The translations under genes were made by a program, and so were the position numbers. A stretch of 64,000 bases of DNA from positions 248,001-312,000 of the forward strand of contig NZ_LFQU01000001.1 of the NCBI RefSeq assembly GCF_001275135.1, written 5' to 3'. Source of the stretch: Xylanibacter rarus. GTDB taxonomy: Bacteria; Bacteroidota; Bacteroidia; Bacteroidales; Bacteroidaceae. Below are positions 1,418 through 10,095 of the stretch, piece by piece (positions within the stretch are counted from its first letter, which is position 1; every line of letters begins with the position of its first letter). The notes under the pieces were generated by a model that was not told where the DNA came from, searched no databases, and worked only from the letters and a program-made list of their open reading frames with translations.

Positions 1418-2866
1418 ATGAATCCTATTCAAACTACTAAAATGACCAACTTCCGTTGGGTAATTTGTGCTTTGCTTTTCTGCGCTACGACAGTCAATTA
1501 TCTTGACCGTCAGGTGCTGTCGCTTACGTGGAAAGACTTTATAGCACCCGAGTTCCACTGGAATGATGCTCATTATGGCATGATTACCGGTTTCTTCTCT
1601 GTCTTTTATGCTGTGGCTTGTCTGTTTGCAGGTAAGTTTGTCGACTGGATGGGCATAAAGAAAGGATATCTTTGGGCTATCTTTATATGGTCGCTCGGTG
1701 CATGTATGCACGCAGGATGCGGCTGGGTTACTATGGAGGTTGAGGGCCTCGACTCAATAGAAGCTCTCCGTGCCGTTGAGGCTGGAAGCACAATGGCCGT
1801 TGCCATTGCAACGCTCAGCGTATGGCTCTTCCTCGTTTGCCGTGCCATCCTTGCTCTCGGTGAAGCAGGAAACTTCCCCGCAGCCATCAAGGTTACGGCT
1901 GAATACTTCCCTAAGAAAGACCGCGCTTTTGCAACTTCAATCTTTAATTCAGGTGCGTCTGTCGGTGCTTTGGCAGCTCCGCTTACCATCCCTGTCCTTG
2001 CCAAGCATTTCGGTTGGGAGATGGCGTTCATCATCATCGGTGCGATTGGTTTCGTGTGGATGTTCTTCTGGGCACATCTTTATGAGAAACCTGAAAACTC
2101 TAAGAGAGTAAACAAGGCAGAGCTTATATATATCAATCAGGACGAAAAAGAGGAGCCTGCTTCAGCTGAGGCTAAAGAGGAAAAGACTATTCCGTTCATG
2201 CAGTGCTTCAAGTATAAGCAGACATGGTCGTTCGTAGTAGGTAAGTTCTTCACCGACGGTGTTTGGTGGTTCTATCTGTTCTGGGCTCCGGCTTATTTCT
2301 CAGACCAGTTCGGTTATGAGTCTTCTTCAACAATGGGTATGGCTCTTATCTTTGTGCTTTATCTCATTGTTACCATATTGTCAATCTACGGCGGTTACCT
2401 GCCTAAACTGTTTGTTGAGAAGAAGGGCATGGGTCCTTATGCAGGCCGTATGCGCGCTATGCTTATCTTTGCATTCTTCCCGCTGTTCGCGCTGTTCGCT
2501 CAGCCGCTTGGTGCAAATTCTGCATGGTTCCCCGCAATCATCATCGGTCTTGCCGGTGCAGGTCATCAGGCTTGGTCTGCCAACCTGTTCTCTACAATCG
2601 GTGATATGTTCCCCAAATCAACTATCGCAACCATTACAGGTATAGGCGCTATGGCCGGTGGTATCGGTTCACTGCTTATCAACCTCGGTGCAGGTGAGCT
2701 GTTCACTTATGCTGAGGGCATGGGTTCAGCCTTCTCGTTCCTCGGTATGGAAGGCAAACCGGGTGCATATATGATTGTATTCTGCATCTGCGCCGTTGCT
2801 TATCTGCTGGCTTGGGTTATAATGAAGGCCCTGGTTCCGAAGTATAAGCCAATCGTTGTTGAATAA
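1418..2866 (+). CDS. MFS transporter, hexuronate (ExuT-like) family
   Basis: The 482-residue protein has about twelve hydrophobic segments. Its N-terminus, with NYLDRQVLS just after the first membrane segment, and the GEAGNFPAAIK block in the fourth to fifth segments are typical of the anion:cation symporter branch of the major facilitator superfamily (ExuT, galactonate and glucarate permeases). The likely role is proton-coupled import of a hexuronate or similar sugar acid across the inner membrane; the substrate is inferred from the family only. The frame also has a TTG ten codons upstream (1388), but the ATG at 1418 leaves a normal N-terminus and lies after the promoter. The gene stands alone, with its own promoter and a strong terminator. 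Confidence 0.85.
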   Translation: MNPIQTTKMTNFRWVICALLFCATTVNYLDRQVLSLTWKDFIAPEFHWNDAHYGMITGFFSVFYAVACLFAGKFVDWMGIKKGYLWAIFIWSLGACMHAGCGWVTMEVEGLDSIEALRAVEAGSTMAVAIATLSVWLFLVCRAILALGEAGNFPAAIKVTAEYFPKKDRAFATSIFNSGASVGALAAPLTIPVLAKHFGWEMAFIIIGAIGFVWMFFWAHLYEKPENSKRVNKAELIYINQDEKEEPASAEAKEEKTIPFMQCFKYKQTWSFVVGKFFTDGVWWFYLFWAPAYFSDQFGYESSSTMGMALIFVLYLIVTILSIYGGYLPKLFVEKKGMGPYAGRMRAMLIFAFFPLFALFAQPLGANSAWFPAIIIGLAGAGHQAWSANLFSTIGDMFPKSTIATITGIGAMAGGIGSLLINLGAGELFTYAEGMGSAFSFLGMEGKPGAYMIVFCICAVAYLLAWVIMKALVPKYKPIVVE

Positions 2867-2890
2867 TAATCTTATTTAAGATAAATCCAA

Positions 2891-2923
2891 AGAGGAGAAT
2901 GCGTAGGCGTTCTCCTCTTTTTT
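2891..2923 (+). terminator. Intrinsic terminator after the MFS gene
   Basis: A 9-bp stem (AGAGGAGAA with TTCTCCTCT) around a 10-base loop runs straight into a T tract. Confidence 0.9.
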
Positions 2924-3071
2924 CGTATGTATATATATCCTTATTCTTTAGTTCCTGAAAAGCAGAAAACAGGTTAACGGCAAACTAATGATATTTTAAC
3001 ATTACAGAATAGGGGTATTTCCTGCCTTGCGTGTTAAATGATAAATTAATTATCTTAATACATATTTTAGT

Positions 3072-3734
3072 ATGAAGAAGATTTTATTCACATCGCTTTT
3101 ATTTTTGTCATTTTGTATGGTGGCAAAAGCGCAAGATTTCAGAGTGGGAGCAACGGCAGGTTATAATCTCAGTTCTCCGAGTGGTTATAATGCTCAGTCA
3201 GGTTTTCATGCCGGCCTAAAGGGTGAACTTGGCCTTCCGCAGGTTACAAAAGGACTTTATTTGGACTTTGGACTGATGCTGTCTTCTTATGGATGGAAGT
3301 CACCCAGTTATTATTACAGCGGATATAACATTTCCCGGTTAGATGAAACAACTAATAATAACACTTTTGATTATAAGTTCAGTCCTTATTATTTGAATAT
3401 TCCGGTTCATATTGGATATAAGTTTTCCGTTGGGCGTAATGTAAGCCTGTTTGTTAATGCCGGACCATATTTTAACATCGGTTTGTTTGGCAAATCTACA
3501 ATGACTGTTACAGATGGCAAGGGCACTTCTACGACGAAAAATGCATCAGACAATTTGTTCAGTGACAAAGTCTTAGACCGTTTCGACTGGGGACTGGGCT
3601 TCCGTGCCGGAGCAGAAATAGCCCGCCATGTTCAGCTTTCCGTTGGATATGATTGGGGAATGAAGAATGTTAATAAGACAGGCACAGACTGCAAGAACAG
3701 AACATTCACGGCATCTTTTGCTTATTTATTCTGA
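3072..3734 (+). CDS. Outer membrane beta-barrel protein (porin family)
   Basis: The 220-residue product starts with a clear signal peptide (about residues 1-20, ending AKA before QDF). Alternating hydrophobic strands rich in Tyr and Gly follow, with the strand patterns VGATAGYNLS and WGLGFRAGAEIA, and the protein ends in an aromatic residue (TASFAYLF), as expected for insertion into the outer membrane. The length fits the small eight-stranded barrels of the PF13568-type family, common in Bacteroidetes and mostly without a known function. It has its own terminator and no obvious operon partner. The barrel fold is well supported; nothing indicates a specific ligand. Confidence 0.8.
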   Translation: MKKILFTSLLFLSFCMVAKAQDFRVGATAGYNLSSPSGYNAQSGFHAGLKGELGLPQVTKGLYLDFGLMLSSYGWKSPSYYYSGYNISRLDETTNNNTFDYKFSPYYLNIPVHIGYKFSVGRNVSLFVNAGPYFNIGLFGKSTMTVTDGKGTSTTKNASDNLFSDKVLDRFDWGLGFRAGAEIARHVQLSVGYDWGMKNVNKTGTDCKNRTFTASFAYLF

Positions 3735-3742
3735 AAAGTATA

Positions 3743-3773
3743 TAAGTTCACTTAACGAGTGAACTTATTTTTT
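3743..3773 (+). terminator. Intrinsic terminator after the barrel gene
   Basis: A perfect 10-bp stem (TAAGTTCACT with AGTGAACTTA) with a 5-base loop is followed by six T. Confidence 0.9.
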
Positions 3774-3804
3774 GCTGCCCTTATCAAAGGGCAGTTTGCG
3801 GTTT

Positions 3805-4021
3805 GGTAATAAAAATAAAACAAGTTTTATTTTGTATTGCTCTCACATTTCGCTGTCTTTAGACAAGACAGGATGCGGCTCGGAAATAAAAATAAAACTT
3901 ATTTTATTTTGTATTGCACTCACCTTTCTTTATCTTTAGATAAGATAGGATGCGGCTCGGTAATAAAAATAAAACAAGTTTTATTTTGTATTACTCTCGC
4001 CTTTCACTATCTTTGCGGACG
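3805..4021 (+). repeat. Tandem array of 77-bp promoter-bearing repeats (array A)
   Basis: Two full 77-bp units (3805-3881 and 3882-3958) and a third, gene-proximal unit (3959-4021) lie head to tail. Each unit holds an AT-rich dyad (AAAATAAAAC with GTTTTATTTT in units 1 and 3) whose right arm contains a TTTG -33 box, and a -7 position 19 bp downstream. The -7 position reads TGTCTTTA, TATCTTTA and TATCTTTG in units 1, 2 and 3, so only the last is a full consensus. In units 1 and 2 a second dyad covers the -7 box. A related array lies at 8600-8785. Confidence 0.85.
3985..4015 (+). promoter_or_regulatory. Promoter of the BtuB-like receptor gene
   Basis: TTTG at 3985-3988 and TATCTTTG at 4008-4015 are 19 bp apart, the full Bacteroidetes promoter form. 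It lies in the last unit of repeat array A. Confidence 0.8.
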
Positions 4022-4050
4022 TTTCGCGTAGGCGAAACGTTAATTTTTTA
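4019..4050 (+). promoter_or_regulatory. Hairpin with T-rich tail at the transcript 5' end
   Basis: A perfect 9-bp stem (ACGTTTCGC at 4019-4027 with GCGAAACGT at 4032-4040) with a 4-base loop is followed by TAATTTTTTA. It starts 4 bp after the -7 box, so the start of the RNA would fall in or just before it. It could act as an attenuator or as a stabilising 5' hairpin; which one cannot be told from sequence. Confidence 0.5.
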
Positions 4051-4065
4051 ATTATATCAAATTTT

Positions 4066-6135
4066 ATGTACAAAACAATTTTCAACAAGCGTGAAAGCTT
4101 TAAGTTCTCTCGTTTCGGCAACAAGGGCTATTCGCTCTTTTCTTGCCTGGGCAGAGAGGTGCTTATCGGCACGCTTAGTGTTGCCACTCTTACCTATGCC
4201 AAGGCCGACGGCATAAGCACCAGGGTAGAGAAGGTGGACAGCACTATGCAGACGACCGGTGAGACCGTGATGCTCGACGAGGTGGACGTTACGGCTTCGC
4301 GCGCGCCGCTGACAGGAGGCCATGCGGCGAGAATTGTAAACGTACTCGGGCGCGACGAGATTGCCGCTGCCCCTGTGCAAAGTGTTAACGACTTGCTCAA
4401 GTATGCCGCAGGCGTGGATGTCAGGCAGCGAGGCCCTATCGGGGCACAGACCGACATCAGCATACGCGGAGGCACCAGCGAGCACATCGCCGTCTTGCTT
4501 AACGGCATAAACATCTGCGACCCGCAGACTGGGCACAACGCCTTAGACCTGCCCGTGGATATAAGCGAGATTGAGCGGATTGAAGTGCTTGAGGGACCTG
4601 CCGGAAGAGCCTACGGAACATCGTCGCTTGTGGGCGTAATCAACATTGTTACAAAGCTCGGAGCAAAAAGCAGTGCCGATGTTCATGCCGAAGGAGGATC
4701 GTTTGGCTATCTGGCTGCCGGAGGACGTGTTAATCTGAAGCAAGACAAGTGGAACAATCAGCTGAGCGCGGGCTATACGCGCAGCGACGGCTGGCTGCGA
4801 AGCAAGAGCGGACGCCTCAACGCCGACTATGAAGGCGCGAGGGCATTCTATCAGGGACGTTATGATGACGACCACCTCACGATAGGATGGCACGCCGGAG
4901 TTAGCGACAAGGGATGGGGCAGCAATACGTTCTACAGTCTTCTGTCCGACGAGCAGTATGAGCATACCACAAAATATTTCACGGCCGTTCAGGCCGAGAC
5001 GAAAGGAGGCAAGTTCCACTTCCGGCCGTCTATTTACTGGAACCGTTTTCAAGACCGTTATGAGTTTTACAGAGGAGCGCCCGACAAGTCGCCCTTCAAC
5101 TATAACCGCACCGATGTGTTCGGATTTAACCTCAACAGCTGGTTCGACTGGATTTTGGGGCGCACAGCCTTCGGAGCCGAATTCCGCAACGAAGACCTTG
5201 TGAGCGGAAACCTCGGCGAGCCGCTCGACAATCCGATACACATCCACGGCACCGACCGCAACTATGCCTACGGTCTTAACCGAAGCAACCTCAGTTTTTA
5301 TCTTGAACACAACGTCATCCTTAAGCGTTTCACTCTTTCCGCCGGCTTTACGGCCGTTAAGAACACATGGAACGAGATGCCGTTCAAAATTTATCCCGGC
5401 GTTGACGTCAGCTACAGGATAGGGCAGAACTGGAAGGTGTTTGCATCTTACAACATATCGTTGCGCATGCCGTCGTTCACCGAACTTTATTATTCGGTAG
5501 ATGGACACAAGGCCGATAAATATCTGAAACCCGAGGAGATGAGTGCCGTTGAGGGAGGCGTCAGGTATGTTTCAGAAGGAATAACCGGTACACTGTCGGT
5601 TTATCATCATCATGGAACAAACATGATCGACTGGATAATGGACACCTCGCTTGGCGAGGACGCTGTGTGGACATCGGTTAATCATGCCGAGATTAACTCA
5701 ACGGGCTTCGAGGCTTCGCTGAAGTTCCGCTTCGCCAGTCTGCTGCCACGTCAGGATGTGCTGCGCACGTTAAATGTGTCCTACAGCTACATCGACCAGA
5801 GTCAGAACAAGGAGCCGGGCGTGCAGTCGCTTTATGCCCTCGAGTATCTAAGGCATAAGCTCGTGGCAGGTCTCGGCCTGCACATAGTGAGCGCCCTTAA
5901 CCTAAATGTCAACTATCGCTATCAGTATCGCGTAGGGTCATACACCGACCCGCAGGGTGTGTCTGTCACTTATAAGCCCTATTCGCTTGTAGACGCACGT
6001 CTGTCGTGGGACAAGTCGCACTACAGCGTCTATGTAGAGGCCAACAACCTGTTTGATGCCACCTATGTCGACTATGGCAACGTGCCTCAGCCCGGCTTGT
6101 GGGTTATGGCAGGAGTAAGATGGAACGTTTGGTGA
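4066..6135 (+). CDS. TonB-dependent receptor, BtuB-like
   Basis: The 689-residue protein has a TonB-box-like DEVDVTA near residue 72, a plug domain (about 75-185; RGGTSEHIAVLLNG and IERIEVLEGPAGRAYG) and a 22-strand-type barrel ending in aromatic WNVW. Single-plug receptors of this size without a carboxypeptidase-like N-terminal domain resemble the vitamin B12 receptor BtuB. The first ~47 residues form an unusually long leader: a polar stretch with FSRFGNKGYSLFSCLGRE comes before the hydrophobic core, as in several Bacteroidetes BtuB-type receptors. It would import a scarce ligand through the outer membrane using TonB energy. B12 or cobinamide is a guess supported by the B12-dependent reductase nearby, but no cobalamin riboswitch was found upstream. 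Confidence 0.82.
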   Translation: MYKTIFNKRESFKFSRFGNKGYSLFSCLGREVLIGTLSVATLTYAKADGISTRVEKVDSTMQTTGETVMLDEVDVTASRAPLTGGHAARIVNVLGRDEIAAAPVQSVNDLLKYAAGVDVRQRGPIGAQTDISIRGGTSEHIAVLLNGINICDPQTGHNALDLPVDISEIERIEVLEGPAGRAYGTSSLVGVINIVTKLGAKSSADVHAEGGSFGYLAAGGRVNLKQDKWNNQLSAGYTRSDGWLRSKSGRLNADYEGARAFYQGRYDDDHLTIGWHAGVSDKGWGSNTFYSLLSDEQYEHTTKYFTAVQAETKGGKFHFRPSIYWNRFQDRYEFYRGAPDKSPFNYNRTDVFGFNLNSWFDWILGRTAFGAEFRNEDLVSGNLGEPLDNPIHIHGTDRNYAYGLNRSNLSFYLEHNVILKRFTLSAGFTAVKNTWNEMPFKIYPGVDVSYRIGQNWKVFASYNISLRMPSFTELYYSVDGHKADKYLKPEEMSAVEGGVRYVSEGITGTLSVYHHHGTNMIDWIMDTSLGEDAVWTSVNHAEINSTGFEASLKFRFASLLPRQDVLRTLNVSYSYIDQSQNKEPGVQSLYALEYLRHKLVAGLGLHIVSALNLNVNYRYQYRVGSYTDPQGVSVTYKPYSLVDARLSWDKSHYSVYVEANNLFDATYVDYGNVPQPGLWVMAGVRWNVW

Positions 6136-6217
6136 CATCAATAGACCTTTCAGCGTGTCTGTCTCCGTCTGCATCAATAATGCATTGCTGTTGACAGCAT
6201 GTTGAAAAACATAAAAT

Positions 6218-6252
6218 AAGTGGGCTGTTTGCGTATCGTAAACGGCCCACTT
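6218..6252 (+). terminator. Terminator-like hairpin after the BtuB-like gene
   Basis: A 13-bp stem with one G-U pair (AAGTGGGCTGTTT with AAACGGCCCACTT) lies 83 bp after the stop codon. Its T tail is short. Confidence 0.6.
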
Positions 6253-6261
6253 TCGTATCAA

Positions 6262-6395
6262 AACTCGGCCACTTTTGCATCGTAACTCTATCGGTTTCAG
6301 TCCGAAAGCAAACAGCTTGCTTTTGCTTAATGTATTTCTTTTTTGTGATGTCGGCGTTTCGTAAGTGTAATTATTTTCTGATGTTTTGCTTACAA
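6262..6395 (+). repeat. Degenerate copy of the dispersed 95-bp hairpin element
   Basis: Bases 6262-6280 match the left arm and loop of the hairpin at 21059 and 38134 (AACTCGGCCACTTTTGCAT), but the right arm is missing. Weak matches to the element's flank follow, including TTTTGCTTACA near 6384. It lies downstream of the receptor gene in the same direction. Confidence 0.5.
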
Positions 6396-6452
6396 TTTTC
6401 GGAGATGTTTTTGTCTGTCATTTGTTTTTAATAAATAAATCCCCTTTAATTG

Positions 6453-6484
6453 TTTGTCTATTTATTAATTTTTGTATATTTTTG
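6453..6484 (+). promoter_or_regulatory. Promoter of the 6641 lipoprotein gene
   Basis: TTTG at 6453-6456 and TATTTTTG at 6477-6484 are 20 bp apart. This leaves a leader of about 150 bases. Between 6136 and 6640 I otherwise see only the terminator hairpin and the degenerate repeat. Confidence 0.65.
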
Positions 6485-6640
6485 CAAAAACTCCAAGCTA
6501 AACAGACATTTAGCAGAGATATTTGCCTGGAGTGTAGAACAGGGGGATAAAACTCGTAAATCTGGTGTTGAGAATGATGTCAGCTGTTTCAGACAGCATA
6601 AGTGTATAATGAGAATGAAAACTGTGACAAAACAAAAACT

Positions 6641-8323
6641 ATGAAGAAAATCTATTACATTCTGCCAATCGTACTATTGGTTATGAACGTTCTGTCAGGC
6701 TGTACTGACAGCGAAGAGGAACAAGGTCCTGTGGTTGTTGAAGTTGATGACGAAGAGATGCTTCGTCAAGGTTGGAAATGGGCTGTAGCCTTGGACAATG
6801 ACTTGCGGATGCAGTGCTCTCCAGATATTGTCAACGGAGGGTATGTCATGCAGATGACCGACATGGACAGTTATGATGCCGTATTTGTTTTCGACGACAA
6901 ATGCCGTGTCAGAGAAGCGTGCATCAACTCTGTGTGGTATTATTTCTTTGTTCGTGACAACACTCTGAACGTCTCTTATTTAGGAGATTCTTGGATGCAT
7001 GAGTCTTTCGACTTCAATGTGCAAGAACCAATTTTGGGAAATCCTTTTGAGAAAATGACCGAAAACCTTAAAACCGTTTATAAGACAGTGTCTTTGCTGC
7101 CCATGCCTGTAAAGACAAACATCAACGACTTGTTTGCAGCCGTTGATAGAGGCGAATATAACACATCTTCTGCGCCTGACGATGACGCGGACATCAAAAA
7201 CTTCTGTGAAGTTGTATATTATTACGAAGCGTGGAACCAAGACTTGCGTGACGACCTTTTCGGAAAAGGGCTGTTGCTGCATTATAAACATGAGCGTACA
7301 ACATACAGCAATAAAATAGGAATAGCATTAGATCCTGTAAACAATAAAACGTTCAACCGCGGCTATGGCTCAGGCCGTTATGGAGAGGAGATGGATAACA
7401 AAGTATACTGCGGTCTGGTTTTCGGCAGCTCGCCTGATGTGGCGTTGGGTAACTACGAATGTAAGACTAACCTGGTGCCGGCGGAGCCAGAGGACGGTTA
7501 TGTTTGGGTGGATGTTCCGGAGAATATGGAGAGCAAAGCCTATTATGTCCGTGCTTTCATGGTGTCAGAGCAGGAAAAGGATAAGGTGGAGCGCGGCGAA
7601 TACATACCTCCTCATCTTGTGCGCTTTGAAAAAGACGGTCCAGACAATTTGAAGATTTTTTATGGAGGCGAGATCGTGATGGATAATTTTGTGGTTGTCA
7701 ACGAGCCTGTCGTAGATGGCGCGCTTAAAGTCAATCTGTCTGGCCATCTCTCTGTTCCTGACTATCTTGCGGAATATGGATTTGAGCTGAATTTTAGATT
7801 GGTGGGAGACCATAGCGGTGAATATGTAAATATAGTCTCACCGGGCAAGATAGACGAACATATCAGTATATGGAAAAATTATTTCAAAGAGTTTGACACA
7901 GAGAACTTCATAGCCCGTGGCTACTTTGAACTTTCAGTAAATGTAGGCTGGGTGTGCCTTGGCGTTGTTCCTTTTACGGTAGTATATGACAAGAAACCGT
8001 ATATCCGTTATACAGGTCTTACGCATGACGGCATGTCTGTAAAGATAAAAAGAAAAATAGACGGGGCATTATGGTTTGACGATGATGTGAATATAATGTG
8101 GGAAACCCCTAAAGGTCCTGTAGAATGTTCGTCTTATTTTGCCAGCGAGGGTGAGAGCGAATATAGCGAAGATATAGACGACACAAACCTTATCTCATAT
8201 CAGAGGAAGGCTTCCGGCGAGTATATGGAAGTCACCATAGACGGTAAGACGTTAAGGAGCAACCGCCTGATATTTGAGAGGGATGCTGACGGCATACGTA
8301 CAAATATATATTTAGAGGAATAA
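6641..8323 (+). CDS. Predicted lipoprotein of unknown function
   Basis: The 560-residue product begins MKKIYYILPIVLLVM with a lipobox ending LSGC, so it should be lipidated and attached to a membrane, probably the outer one. An acidic stretch follows the cysteine (DSEEE...EVDDEE). The rest is soluble, rich in aromatic residues and beta-type sequence, with no motif I recognise. The frame has a GTG 13 codons upstream (6602), but the ATG at 6641 gives a correct lipoprotein signal. It stands alone between its own promoter and a strong terminator. The function is unknown. Confidence 0.75.
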   Translation: MKKIYYILPIVLLVMNVLSGCTDSEEEQGPVVVEVDDEEMLRQGWKWAVALDNDLRMQCSPDIVNGGYVMQMTDMDSYDAVFVFDDKCRVREACINSVWYYFFVRDNTLNVSYLGDSWMHESFDFNVQEPILGNPFEKMTENLKTVYKTVSLLPMPVKTNINDLFAAVDRGEYNTSSAPDDDADIKNFCEVVYYYEAWNQDLRDDLFGKGLLLHYKHERTTYSNKIGIALDPVNNKTFNRGYGSGRYGEEMDNKVYCGLVFGSSPDVALGNYECKTNLVPAEPEDGYVWVDVPENMESKAYYVRAFMVSEQEKDKVERGEYIPPHLVRFEKDGPDNLKIFYGGEIVMDNFVVVNEPVVDGALKVNLSGHLSVPDYLAEYGFELNFRLVGDHSGEYVNIVSPGKIDEHISIWKNYFKEFDTENFIARGYFELSVNVGWVCLGVVPFTVVYDKKPYIRYTGLTHDGMSVKIKRKIDGALWFDDDVNIMWETPKGPVECSSYFASEGESEYSEDIDDTNLISYQRKASGEYMEVTIDGKTLRSNRLIFERDADGIRTNIYLEE

Positions 8324-8380
8324 TGAGAATAAACTGTGTCGTGTTCAAATGTGAACATAGATAATAATAATTATAAATTA

Positions 8381-8430
8381 AAAACAGCCTTATCAGATTC
8401 TTTTAGAGAAGTGATAAGGCTGTTTTTGTC
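8381..8430 (+). terminator. Terminator after the lipoprotein gene
   Basis: A perfect 15-bp stem (8381-8395 with 8412-8426; core ACAGCCTTATCA) has T residues after it and A residues before it, so it could work on both strands. Confidence 0.85.
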
Positions 8431-8672
8431 TGATAATTTAAACCTAAACCTGTCGTTATTCCGTATATGTGTTTAAATGAATCCTTATTCCTTATTATAT
8501 TGTTATGCAGGAAAAATAGCAAGTGGCAATCCGTTTAATATATCAGGATTCGGTCTTAATCCTAATGATTTAGGGCTAAGTTGGTTTTTCCATGGCTTTC
8601 TTCGTGTGTTTCTCATTTTTAATAAGATAGGATGCGGCACGGCGCTTCAAAATAAAAAACTGCGTTTATAAT

Positions 8673-8703
8673 TTTGTACTGCTCTCACCTTTCACTATCT
8701 TTG
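8673..8703 (+). promoter_or_regulatory. Upstream promoter in repeat array B
   Basis: TTTG at 8673-8676 and TATCTTTG at 8696-8703 with a 19-bp spacer. It reads towards the 8803 gene, so that gene may have two promoters 77 bp apart. Confidence 0.6.
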
Positions 8704-8749
8704 AATAAGATAGGCTGCGGCTCGGTAATAAAAAATAAGCAAGCTTCTT

Positions 8750-8780
8750 TTTGTATTTCTCTCACCTTTCACTATCTTTG
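8750..8780 (+). promoter_or_regulatory. Proximal promoter of the DUF1593 gene
   Basis: TTTG at 8750-8753 and TATCTTTG at 8773-8780 with a 19-bp spacer, 22 bp before the ATG at 8803. The leader would be very short. Confidence 0.75.
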
Positions 8781-8802
8781 CAGATGATTATTAGCCAAGG
8801 AA

Positions 8803-10095
8803 ATGAAGAAACATAATATAACAGTCTTACTATTACTATTGTCGATGTTTTCTCTTTTTGCGCATGCTCAAAAGCCGAGACCGGAGAGGCCGAGGATTAT
8901 CGTGAGCAGCGATATTGGAGGCACTGACCCTGACGACAACCAGTCGATGATTCACCTGCTTATGTATAACGACATGTTCGACATAGAAGGACTTGTCTCG
9001 TCGCCGTCGTTCGGCAGCGGCTCGGCAGACGAAATAAGGCGCATGATCGGCATATATGAGAAAGACTATGACAGACTGAAGAAACATGCTGCCGGACTTA
9101 TGCCTCCCGACTCGCTGCGCCGTATCTGCAAGCAGGGAAGGCGCGGGCTGGCGCCTTTCAAAGGCTACGATGAGCCTACGGAAGGTTCAGAATGGATAGT
9201 GAGACAGGCGCGCCGGCAGAGCGACCGCCCGCTGTGGATACTTGTGTGGGGCACGCTCGAGGATGTGGCTCAGGCCTTGCACGATGCGCCCGACATAAAG
9301 GACAAAATAAGAATATATTATATAGGCGGACCAAACAAAAAGTGGGGCGTAAACAGCTATGCCTATATAGCAGAAAATTTTCCGGATGTGTGGATGATAG
9401 AAAATAATGCCACATACCGCGGACTGATAGCCGACGGCAAAAGGGACGGAGAGGCCGACAGCCGTTATTATGAACGCGTGATGAGCGGGGCAGGACACAT
9501 GGGTGCCGACTTTATAAACTATTATAAAGGTAGGGTAAAGATGGGCGACACGCCTTCGCTGTTGTATATGATGGACGGCAATCCTGATGACCCGGAAAAG
9601 GAAAGCTGCTGGGGAGGAAGTTTTAGACGCACGGCATATACGTCGCGCAGAGTGTTTGAGCGTGCAACAACGCTTAACGACACCGTACCGGTTTATTCAG
9701 TGATTGAGCTGCGCATGAAGGGACCTGAACTCGACATTGATCAGGATTCAGTGTGCTTCACCGCAACTATCGACCGCCAGGCATGGCCTGGATATTATTT
9801 GGGCAACGGGCTTTATGCCGTGAGATATTCGCCAAAGGCTCCTGCAGTGCTTAGTTACACTGTGAGTTCTGGTATAAAAGAACTTGACGGACAACATGGC
9901 ACATTCGTTGTTGACAGAATGTGGCCGGGCAAGCGTTGTAAGGACGACTATACCGTTGGCGGCAACTGGTTCACTGACCGTGGCGATAAAGAGTATTTTG
10001 AAGGTCCGTGGCAAGGAGCCGGACTGATAAGACTGTTGCGCCACGAAATACTTGAAGACTGGACAGAGAGATGGAACTGGCTGAAAGACAGGTGA
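8803..10095 (+). CDS. Secreted DUF1593 / nucleoside-hydrolase-like protein
   Basis: The 430-residue protein has a signal peptide (about 1-22, ending AHA before QKPRPERP). The block RIIVSSDIGGTDPDDNQSM follows, with clustered aspartates like the calcium-binding DTDxGxDD motif of nucleoside hydrolases. IEGLVSSP and later YIGGPNKKWGVNSY match the PF07632 (DUF1593) family. The C-terminal ~100 residues look like a separate beta-sandwich. The family is often found in polysaccharide-degrading Bacteroidetes, but no reaction is firmly known. The protein should act in the periplasm or outside. It shares its unusual promoter array with the BtuB-like receptor gene, which hints at shared control. No terminator is evident before the next promoter. 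Confidence 0.82.
   Translation: MKKHNITVLLLLLSMFSLFAHAQKPRPERPRIIVSSDIGGTDPDDNQSMIHLLMYNDMFDIEGLVSSPSFGSGSADEIRRMIGIYEKDYDRLKKHAAGLMPPDSLRRICKQGRRGLAPFKGYDEPTEGSEWIVRQARRQSDRPLWILVWGTLEDVAQALHDAPDIKDKIRIYYIGGPNKKWGVNSYAYIAENFPDVWMIENNATYRGLIADGKRDGEADSRYYERVMSGAGHMGADFINYYKGRVKMGDTPSLLYMMDGNPDDPEKESCWGGSFRRTAYTSRRVFERATTLNDTVPVYSVIELRMKGPELDIDQDSVCFTATIDRQAWPGYYLGNGLYAVRYSPKAPAVLSYTVSSGIKELDGQHGTFVVDRMWPGKRCKDDYTVGGNWFTDRGDKEYFEGPWQGAGLIRLLRHEILEDWTERWNWLKDR

Follow-up and report, generated by a model that had tools for sequence, protein, structure and literature searches.

The three promoter-like repeats that precede a TonB-dependent receptor gene of Xylanibacter rarus belong to a repeat family, and we think that this is probably a family of mobile promoter hairpins, which enters at existing promoters and stacks there in tandem while the gene-proximal copy is kept intact. 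Each unit would be a small mobile promoter of ~63 to 86 bp in the form of an imperfect hairpin, in which the 3' arm would be a complete Bacteroidales-type promoter (TTTG - 19 - TAnnTTTG) and the 5' arm (typically AAGnTAG...) would be complementary to the unit's own -7 box. A copy would enter immediately 3' of a pre-existing promoter's -7 box, pointing into the gene, so that its own -7 would now be nearest to the gene. Arrays would grow through fresh entries or tandem duplication, with units of the same or another subfamily; the copy closest to the gene would be kept as the working promoter while older upstream copies drift.

The repeats lie in the window, by which we mean the whole 64,000-nucleotide stretch of DNA analysed. 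A first-pass annotation of this DNA had described three 77-bp units with an exact period (array A), each with a TTTG and a -7 box 19 bp apart. This layout was upheld: the spacings are 77 and 77, the gap is 19 bp in all three units, and only the last unit has the full TAnnTTTG. Tandem Repeats Finder gave array A a score of 324, with 84% matches and no indels. A second array (array B, 8624-8780) was found ~4.6 kb downstream of array A, before a nucleoside-hydrolase-like gene. The features are as follows.

3788..3861, + strand: promoter-hairpin unit 1 of array A, the most degenerate (model R1, 50.6 bits)
3831-3834 and 3854-3861, + strand: boxes of unit 1, -33 TTTG and -7 TGTCTTTA (sequence)
3865..3938, + strand: promoter-hairpin unit 2 of array A (model R1, 72.0 bits; ssDNA fold z -2.36)
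3908-3911 and 3931-3938, + strand: boxes of unit 2, -33 TTTG and -7 TATCTTTA (sequence)
3942..4015, + strand: promoter-hairpin unit 3 of array A, gene-proximal, full consensus (model R1, 90.6 bits)
3985-3988 and 4008-4015, + strand: boxes of unit 3, -33 TTTG and -7 TATCTTTG (sequence)
4066..6135, + strand: TonB-dependent receptor gene (Plug and beta-barrel) behind array A (PF00593, 9.3e-32; PF07715, 5.9e-20)
8624..8703, + strand: unit 1 of array B (model R1, 81.2 bits; ssDNA fold ordinary, z -0.36)
8707..8780, + strand: unit 2 of array B, gene-proximal, -7 TATCTTTG (model R1, 77.9 bits)
8803..10095, + strand: nucleoside-hydrolase-like (Sde182_NH-like) gene behind array B (PF07632, 2.5e-54)

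The annotation had proposed a search for further copies in the genome, and such copies were found, with 29 BLAST matches to a 234-bp query. The covariance model used for genome searches, built on 37 units, gave 58 matches in the source genome at E<=0.001, and a core pattern with at most 3 mismatches occurred there at 29 places versus 0 for a reversed control pattern. Across the source's genus the family was present in 179 of 200 sampled genomes, the source included (77 of 86 good genomes). Beyond the genus, 118 further genomes of the order were sampled and 8 had the family; these 8 represent eight genera, each from a different family, and 5 of them had at least 30 matches. Copy numbers per genome in the genus and order surveys are lower bounds, at most 23 and 39 candidates, respectively, having been scored per genome. 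An exact pattern was found in 31 stretches of public genomes, including four Prevotella records; its carriers include Barnesiella sp. An22 and An55, Phocaeicola plebeius DSM 17135, Mediterranea massiliensis, and Bacteroides ndongoniae. The P. plebeius strain has a two-unit array at L185:1146-1315. The family is patchy across the order and dense in one genus.

A search for a plasmid vehicle gave 0 matches in 72,556 plasmid records. Among 50,697 phage records, 8 matched, all of them faecal "Bacteriophage sp." contigs that lack annotation and could be DNA of the host, and an exact pattern was without a match in IMG/VR. Considered as a known RNA, the units overlapped no family of Rfam 15 in 11 loci and window positions 2800-9200. 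The palindromic Bacteroidetes RNA candidates HMP2_4205, HMP2_1065, and HMP2_1032, taken here from their description in the accessible part of PMC8040213, could overlap with the hairpin units.

For locus-level comparisons, 261 units in 157 arrays were tabulated from 267 model matches (145, 65, and 57); the loci studied are a part of the model matches, chosen from those listed. The table leaves out one unit of locus L105 at a contig end, four antisense palindromic copies, and one more, and the true last unit of L105 is absent from the counts of gene-proximal and upstream -7 boxes. Units are mostly 63 nt long in genomes G010 and G012, mostly 85 nt in G004, and 69 to 77 nt in G006, and the better-aligned units of the source genome measure 73 to 86 nt. 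A typical layout reads [TAnnTTTG] - [CAT, AAT, or a small hairpin] - AAGnTAG...CTAnnTTTG.

Comparison of the copies indicates that the whole unit is an imperfect palindrome, with the -7 box in its 3' arm. In a structure-free covariation scan of all column pairs in 37 units, the diagonal i+j=88 stood out with a score of 4.35, the runner-up reaching 0.92. These 37 units came from a set of 48, and because the omitted 11 (9 first units and 2 solo units) had a poor 5' arm, the 37-unit results favour pairing; the scan was therefore rerun without arm selection. Two neighbouring palindromic diagonals then scored 2.92 and 2.77 in all 53 source-genome units (next, 0.99), 4.68 and 4.39 in 41 units of G009 (next, 1.32), and 2.29 and 1.62 in 48 units of G010 (next, 0.92). 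For the named structure, 89.4% of the cells in the 37 units were paired versus 79.2% in shuffles, and covariation was 0.275 versus 0.103 shuffled (0/500); sliding the partners by 1 to 3 columns reduced it to 0.054 or less. In three alignments covering 16 genomes, 4529/5152 pair cells were Watson-Crick, a count that leans towards the model to which the alignments were fitted (antisense rows are in, and identical rows count once). One pair read CG 55 times, GC 50, TA 43, and AT 13 across the 16 genomes. Folded as single-stranded DNA, 9 of the 10 units tried had z scores of -2.35 to -5.69, the exception being window positions 8624-8703 (-0.36); for unit 3 of array A (z -5.12), 0/200 shuffles folded equally well.

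Among 97 units whose upstream and own -7 boxes differ, the 5' arm is the better match to its own box in 82 and to the upstream box in 11 (4 ties), a count biased to an unknown extent by the model that found the units, which rewards own-box pairing. The annotation had seen a kept, covarying dyad around the -7 box of the two upstream units as selection on a palindrome. The palindrome is real and covaries, but the pairing mainly kept is that of the whole unit rather than the junction dyad. Both the covariation diagonals and the own-box fit (82/97) speak against the junction dyad as the main conserved unit, yet it fits units 1 and 2 of array A better. The units have terminal inverted repeats, which is a mark of DDE-type MITEs, and they combine inverted hairpin arms with many intergenic copies, as is expected of REPIN/RAYT systems. 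At L045:1644-1741, a small second hairpin sits in the loop of a unit, which is 98 nt long versus ~78.

Each unit has the form of a whole promoter (TTTG, 19 bp, -7 box), as the annotation had read it. In the accessible part of PMC7366714, the sigma-ABfr promoter of Bacteroides fragilis is TAnnTTTG / TTTG, which the -33 and -7 boxes of the units fit; the 19-bp gap was checked against that consensus within the window. What that text describes is a promoter only, whereas the repeated hairpin is the feature here. A perfect TAnnTTTG formed the last 8 bases of 140 of the 157 gene-proximal or solo units, and the first ATG followed the -7 box at a median of 31 nt, counted from the end of the box. Among the 154 of 157 arrays with enough flank, the downstream side was a gene start in 145 and a gene end in 9; on the upstream side of the 157 arrays there were 70 gene starts and 79 gene ends, with 8 flanks too short, all of these counts resting on a simple, crude ORF caller. 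The units would be expected to fire as promoters. The sequence comparisons show a family of units, a whole-unit palindrome with compensatory changes, an orientation towards genes, and a frequent position 3' of -7 boxes.

A perfect -7 was present in 83/91 solo units, 57/66 gene-proximal units, and 58/104 upstream units (proximal versus upstream, Fisher p 2.4e-5). Since a perfect -7 is commoner in the gene-proximal copy than in upstream units, selection seems to maintain that copy as a promoter and to leave the upstream ones freer. Expression tuned by copy number, which the annotation had raised, is at most a possibility here; it is the upstream units that decay more. In genome G002 (L103, L107, and others), a perfect -7 was absent from all 12 upstream units counted; several of these boxes end in TTTC or TTTT or have lost a part, and the proximal units of L103 and L107 are intact. 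The inner promoters of G002 look as if they had been silenced.

The annotation had also tied the repeats to a receptor gene, and this tie did not hold. The 131 downstream proteins hit 237 Pfam families, none of which occurred in more than 5 of them, and include aminoacyl-tRNA synthetases, RuvB, transporters, and hydrolases; the scan took 131 of the 145 downstream genes, the other 14 being paralogs, repeats, and mostly short ones. These unrelated genes speak against a regulon of receptor genes. Similar promoters before non-homologous genes of one genome, which is one mark of mobile promoters, were found here. Loci L004, L016, and L017 have similar AAA-ATPase-like genes, each behind units, and L004 and L016 are 88% alike from the unit into the gene; PF09820 matches 3 of the 131 proteins scanned, its 3 members not shown by name.

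First units often stand behind another -7 box. A perfect TAnnTTTG lay within 30 nt upstream of the first unit in 58 of 157 arrays, versus 2.2% of shuffles and 2.4% of 622 control windows, and its spacing to the unit was exactly 3 nt in 36 of the 58. By genome, the perfect upstream box was found in 21/23 arrays of G010, 6/6 of G012, and 7/27 of the source genome, in which 13/27 first units scored only 4/6 for an upstream -7 box. Array A itself scored 5/6, with a T run and no clear box. The G010 figure counts against fresh insertion in so far as selection on a double promoter explains it equally well.

The comparisons also show unit-less homologous sites, copy-number differences between similar sites, mixed arrays, and decay of upstream copies. 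The TonB receptor gene has three units in the source genome and none at 11 of 11 best-matching orthologs (61-73% protein identity). At three of these, L150, L151, and L152, the preceding gene is by eye the transporter that also precedes the array in the window. A leader hairpin resembling the one behind unit 3 follows a plain -7 there (TATCTTTG, TACCTTTG, and TATCTTTG, respectively), and the -7 and leader of unit 3 align by eye with this plain promoter. The exact junctions are unreadable at the TonB orthologs, with their 61-73% protein identity and an extra upstream gene in the source genome. In G012, G176, G162, and G382 (L096, L195, L196, and L197), a homologous flank is followed by a unit directly after TATATTTGCAG or TATATTTGCAT. 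The same flank in G077 (L201) runs from TATTTTTGCAG into AAAATAGGAGGC, a ribosome-binding-site-like stretch, and ATG, with no unit. The stretch AAAATAGGAGGC resembles the unit start AAAATTGGCGGC, and the match extends 12 bases into the unit. L201 would be either a never-filled site or a deletion remnant, the latter because these 12 bases after the box resemble a unit start. Presence and absence at homologous sites, another mark of mobile promoters, was found here, with L201 as a possible remnant. We infer that insertion, rather than loss in the other species, explains the unit-less sites; that they could be losses counts against the mobile-promoter reading.

The flank around L195, L196, L197, and L201 (~1400-1600) and L096:1460-1550 is conserved and common to the promoters of different genes in several genomes. 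Several of its copies contain CTCGCTCTTTGACATACTG, and it may mark mobile gene cassettes.

Copy number differs between otherwise similar stretches. Within one genome, L096 has one unit and L097 has two, in aligned stretches that are 92% and 99% alike. L002 (contig C60) has one and five units behind ~50 shared bases, the added units differing in the inner stem. The tandem multiplication of promoters that the annotation had suggested is supported by these arrays, and adjacent tandem copies had a median identity of 0.93. Some neighbours were less than 75% identical in 13 of 66 multi-unit arrays; some of these low identities come from units that have decayed or are partial, such as a 51-nt match in L043, and by eye L045, L091, and L120 hold different subfamilies within one array. 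Since some arrays hold different subfamilies, array growth is not all tandem duplication. Arrays of a single unit made up 91 of the 157. Orthologous genes of two species sometimes both have units, as at L113 and L116, which is compatible with old inherited copies and counts against the mobile-promoter reading. In the Rikenellaceae loci L170:2565-2939 and L161:3157-3374, two unit types alternate as a higher-order repeat.

The dyads at the junctions of array A are present as the annotation had claimed, CTGTCTT at 3853-3859 with AAGACAG at 3865-3871 and TATCTT at 3931-3936 with AAGATA at 3942-3947. A third dyad, missing from that description, lies 5' of unit 1.

3775..3794, + strand: upstream dyad, CTGCCCTT 3775-3782 / AAGGGCAG 3787-3794 (sequence)
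3853..3871, + strand: junction dyad of unit 1/unit 2, CTGTCTT - AAGACAG (sequence)
3931..3947, + strand: junction dyad of unit 2/unit 3, TATCTT - AAGATA (sequence)

The arm of unit 1 matches the upstream dyad CTGCCCTT/AAGGGCAG at 7/7 bases, and this dyad is perhaps a decayed -7 box before unit 1. In units 1 and 2 the arm matches the dyad upstream of it at 7/7 bases versus 5/7 for the unit's own -7 box, and in unit 3 it matches its own box at 7 and the upstream box at 6. Along array A, the stretch 3775-3871 included, the three dyads form a graded series in which pairing is kept while the box drifts from consensus going upstream, where the units' own long pairing is poorer. The junction dyads are real and incompletely explained; one possible cause is that a short hairpin was repaired by template switching. 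The better pairing of units 1 and 2 over the junction than inside the unit counts against the mobile-promoter reading.

The main alternative is an enzyme-free process, possible if on the unlikely side, in which replication switches template or slips from one short -7 box to another of identical sequence (TATCTTTGCA microhomology), the units multiply without a dedicated transposase, and selection keeps good promoters. The hairpin would promote switching and correct itself by quasi-palindrome repair, so that the arms covary. Units have TTTG as their last bases and frequently start 3 nt behind another TTTG, tandem copies are often near-identical (median adjacent identity, 0.93), and the paired changes in the window are clustered at junctions, all of which such switching would lead one to expect; the enzyme search (PF01797), moreover, turned up none tied to the family, a result that also counts against the mobile-promoter reading. 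Template switching accounts less well for the patchy, often high-copy presence in eight further genera of the sample, all from different families, and for some arrays of mixed subfamilies, which look more like an active mobile family. Movement by a Y1 transposase (RAYT/TnpA), as for REPINs or IS200/IS605-type elements, with the arm guiding to the -7 target, is very improbable. The hairpin form and the similar boxes at the left flank and right end do recall IS200/IS605 ends as given in the accessible part of PMC6006769, and the arm matched the upstream box in 49/90 cases versus 36.7 when permuted within species (0/5000). The source genome, however, has no PF01797 match, and the domain (E<=1e-8), found in 73 of 200 genus genomes, bears no visible relation to carriage, being present in 8 of the 20 non-carriers listed. 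Six Y1 loci had no unit nearby, only one of them (L145) coming from a carrier genome. Machinery of the Y1/RAYT (PF01797) kind is mostly refuted by its absence from the source genome and its lack of relation to carriage in the genus; an unrecognised Y1 or other HUH enzyme is possible. Guide pairing to the target, as in IS608/ISDra2, would be suggested by the permutation excess (49/90) and is weakened by the arm's following its own box in 82 cases versus the upstream box in 11.

Two readings give the units a function in place. As a fixed cis-regulatory operator for one regulator, they would mark a regulon whose expression is tuned by copy number; conserved position, orientation, and promoter form would suit this, as would the perfect upstream -7 of G010 (21/23). 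We consider it improbable, with 131 genes of 237 Pfam families showing no theme, 11 of 11 receptor orthologs fetched lacking a unit, and arm sequences that vary by locus and genome while pairing is kept, which a regulator that reads sequence would not readily allow. About as little weight goes to an RNA element, in which transcripts of an upstream promoter would start at the base of the next unit, fold, and act on stability or termination. Array A folds well as RNA (z -4.84), and an excess of G-T + T-G pairs (145) over A-C + C-A pairs (92) in 5152 cells slightly favours folding of the sense strand, but this excess is small and the rows are related. Moreover, 91/157 arrays are single-unit, where the hairpin would be transcribed only from an often-decayed upstream box, and no Rfam family lies over the units in the 11 loci and the part of the window scanned.

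A bolder form of the mobile-promoter reading, which we regard as rather doubtful, is that a selfish single-strand hairpin promoter homes to promoters, integrating at the -7 melted by polymerase. Its landing site would be an expressed gene and each copy a new site, and this alone would give the orientation, the stacks, and a spread that needs no selection by the host. For the mobile-promoter reading in general, the hairpin would presumably be the form handled during copying. If that reading is true, the promoters of many genes in a large genus have been replaced and stacked by a mobile hairpin, a rapid and countable route of regulatory change; it would call for caution in promoter prediction and with tools taken from native Bacteroidales promoters, and it would offer a test case for a mobile element that uses transcription-opened DNA as its target.

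Among known systems, the closest concept is that of mobile promoters (Matus-Garcia, Nijveen and van Passel 2012; van Passel et al. 2014), as cited in the accessible parts of PMC8049555 and PMC4596501. Putative mobile promoters are, in those accounts, likewise short promoter-bearing repeats before unrelated genes; unlike them, the units here have the promoter as an arm of a covarying whole-unit hairpin and are often behind another -7 box and stacked in tandem. With REPINs and REP sequences of RAYT, as described in the accessible parts of PMC8049555 and PMC6006769, the units share short hairpin repeats, variable stems, species-specific sequence, and local amplification, but they are without a Y1 association, carry a promoter, and are strongly oriented to genes. 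In the spacers listed, where CAT, AAT, or a small hairpin prevailed, the REPIN-type GTAG tetranucleotide 5' of the hairpin foot was not found by eye. The Correia elements (CREE) of Neisseria and the BOX elements of pneumococci are promoter-bearing or tandem intergenic palindromic elements. They belong to other phyla than these units and are likened to them by description. BrickBuilt, a MITE described from Porphyromonas gingivalis with strong hits in P. gulae (PMC4596501, accessible part), is likewise a Bacteroidales intergenic element with tandem repeats, inverted-repeat ends, and reported promoter activity; as described there, it differs in being bidirectional and in that its tandem repeat, of 23 nt, lies within a MITE that has a leader and a tail. 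No description of the promoter-hairpin family was found in the literature searched, most subscription papers and supplements being outside reach, and the family would be a variant of "mobile promoters" undescribed in that literature.

Directly 3' of the last -7 of array A, in the leader of the TonB receptor gene, lies a terminator-like hairpin with a T run (4018-4041). By eye, orthologs L150-L153 and L158 have similar leader hairpins at the same place with changed stems. The hairpin at 4018-4041 is a possible attenuator of the receptor gene.
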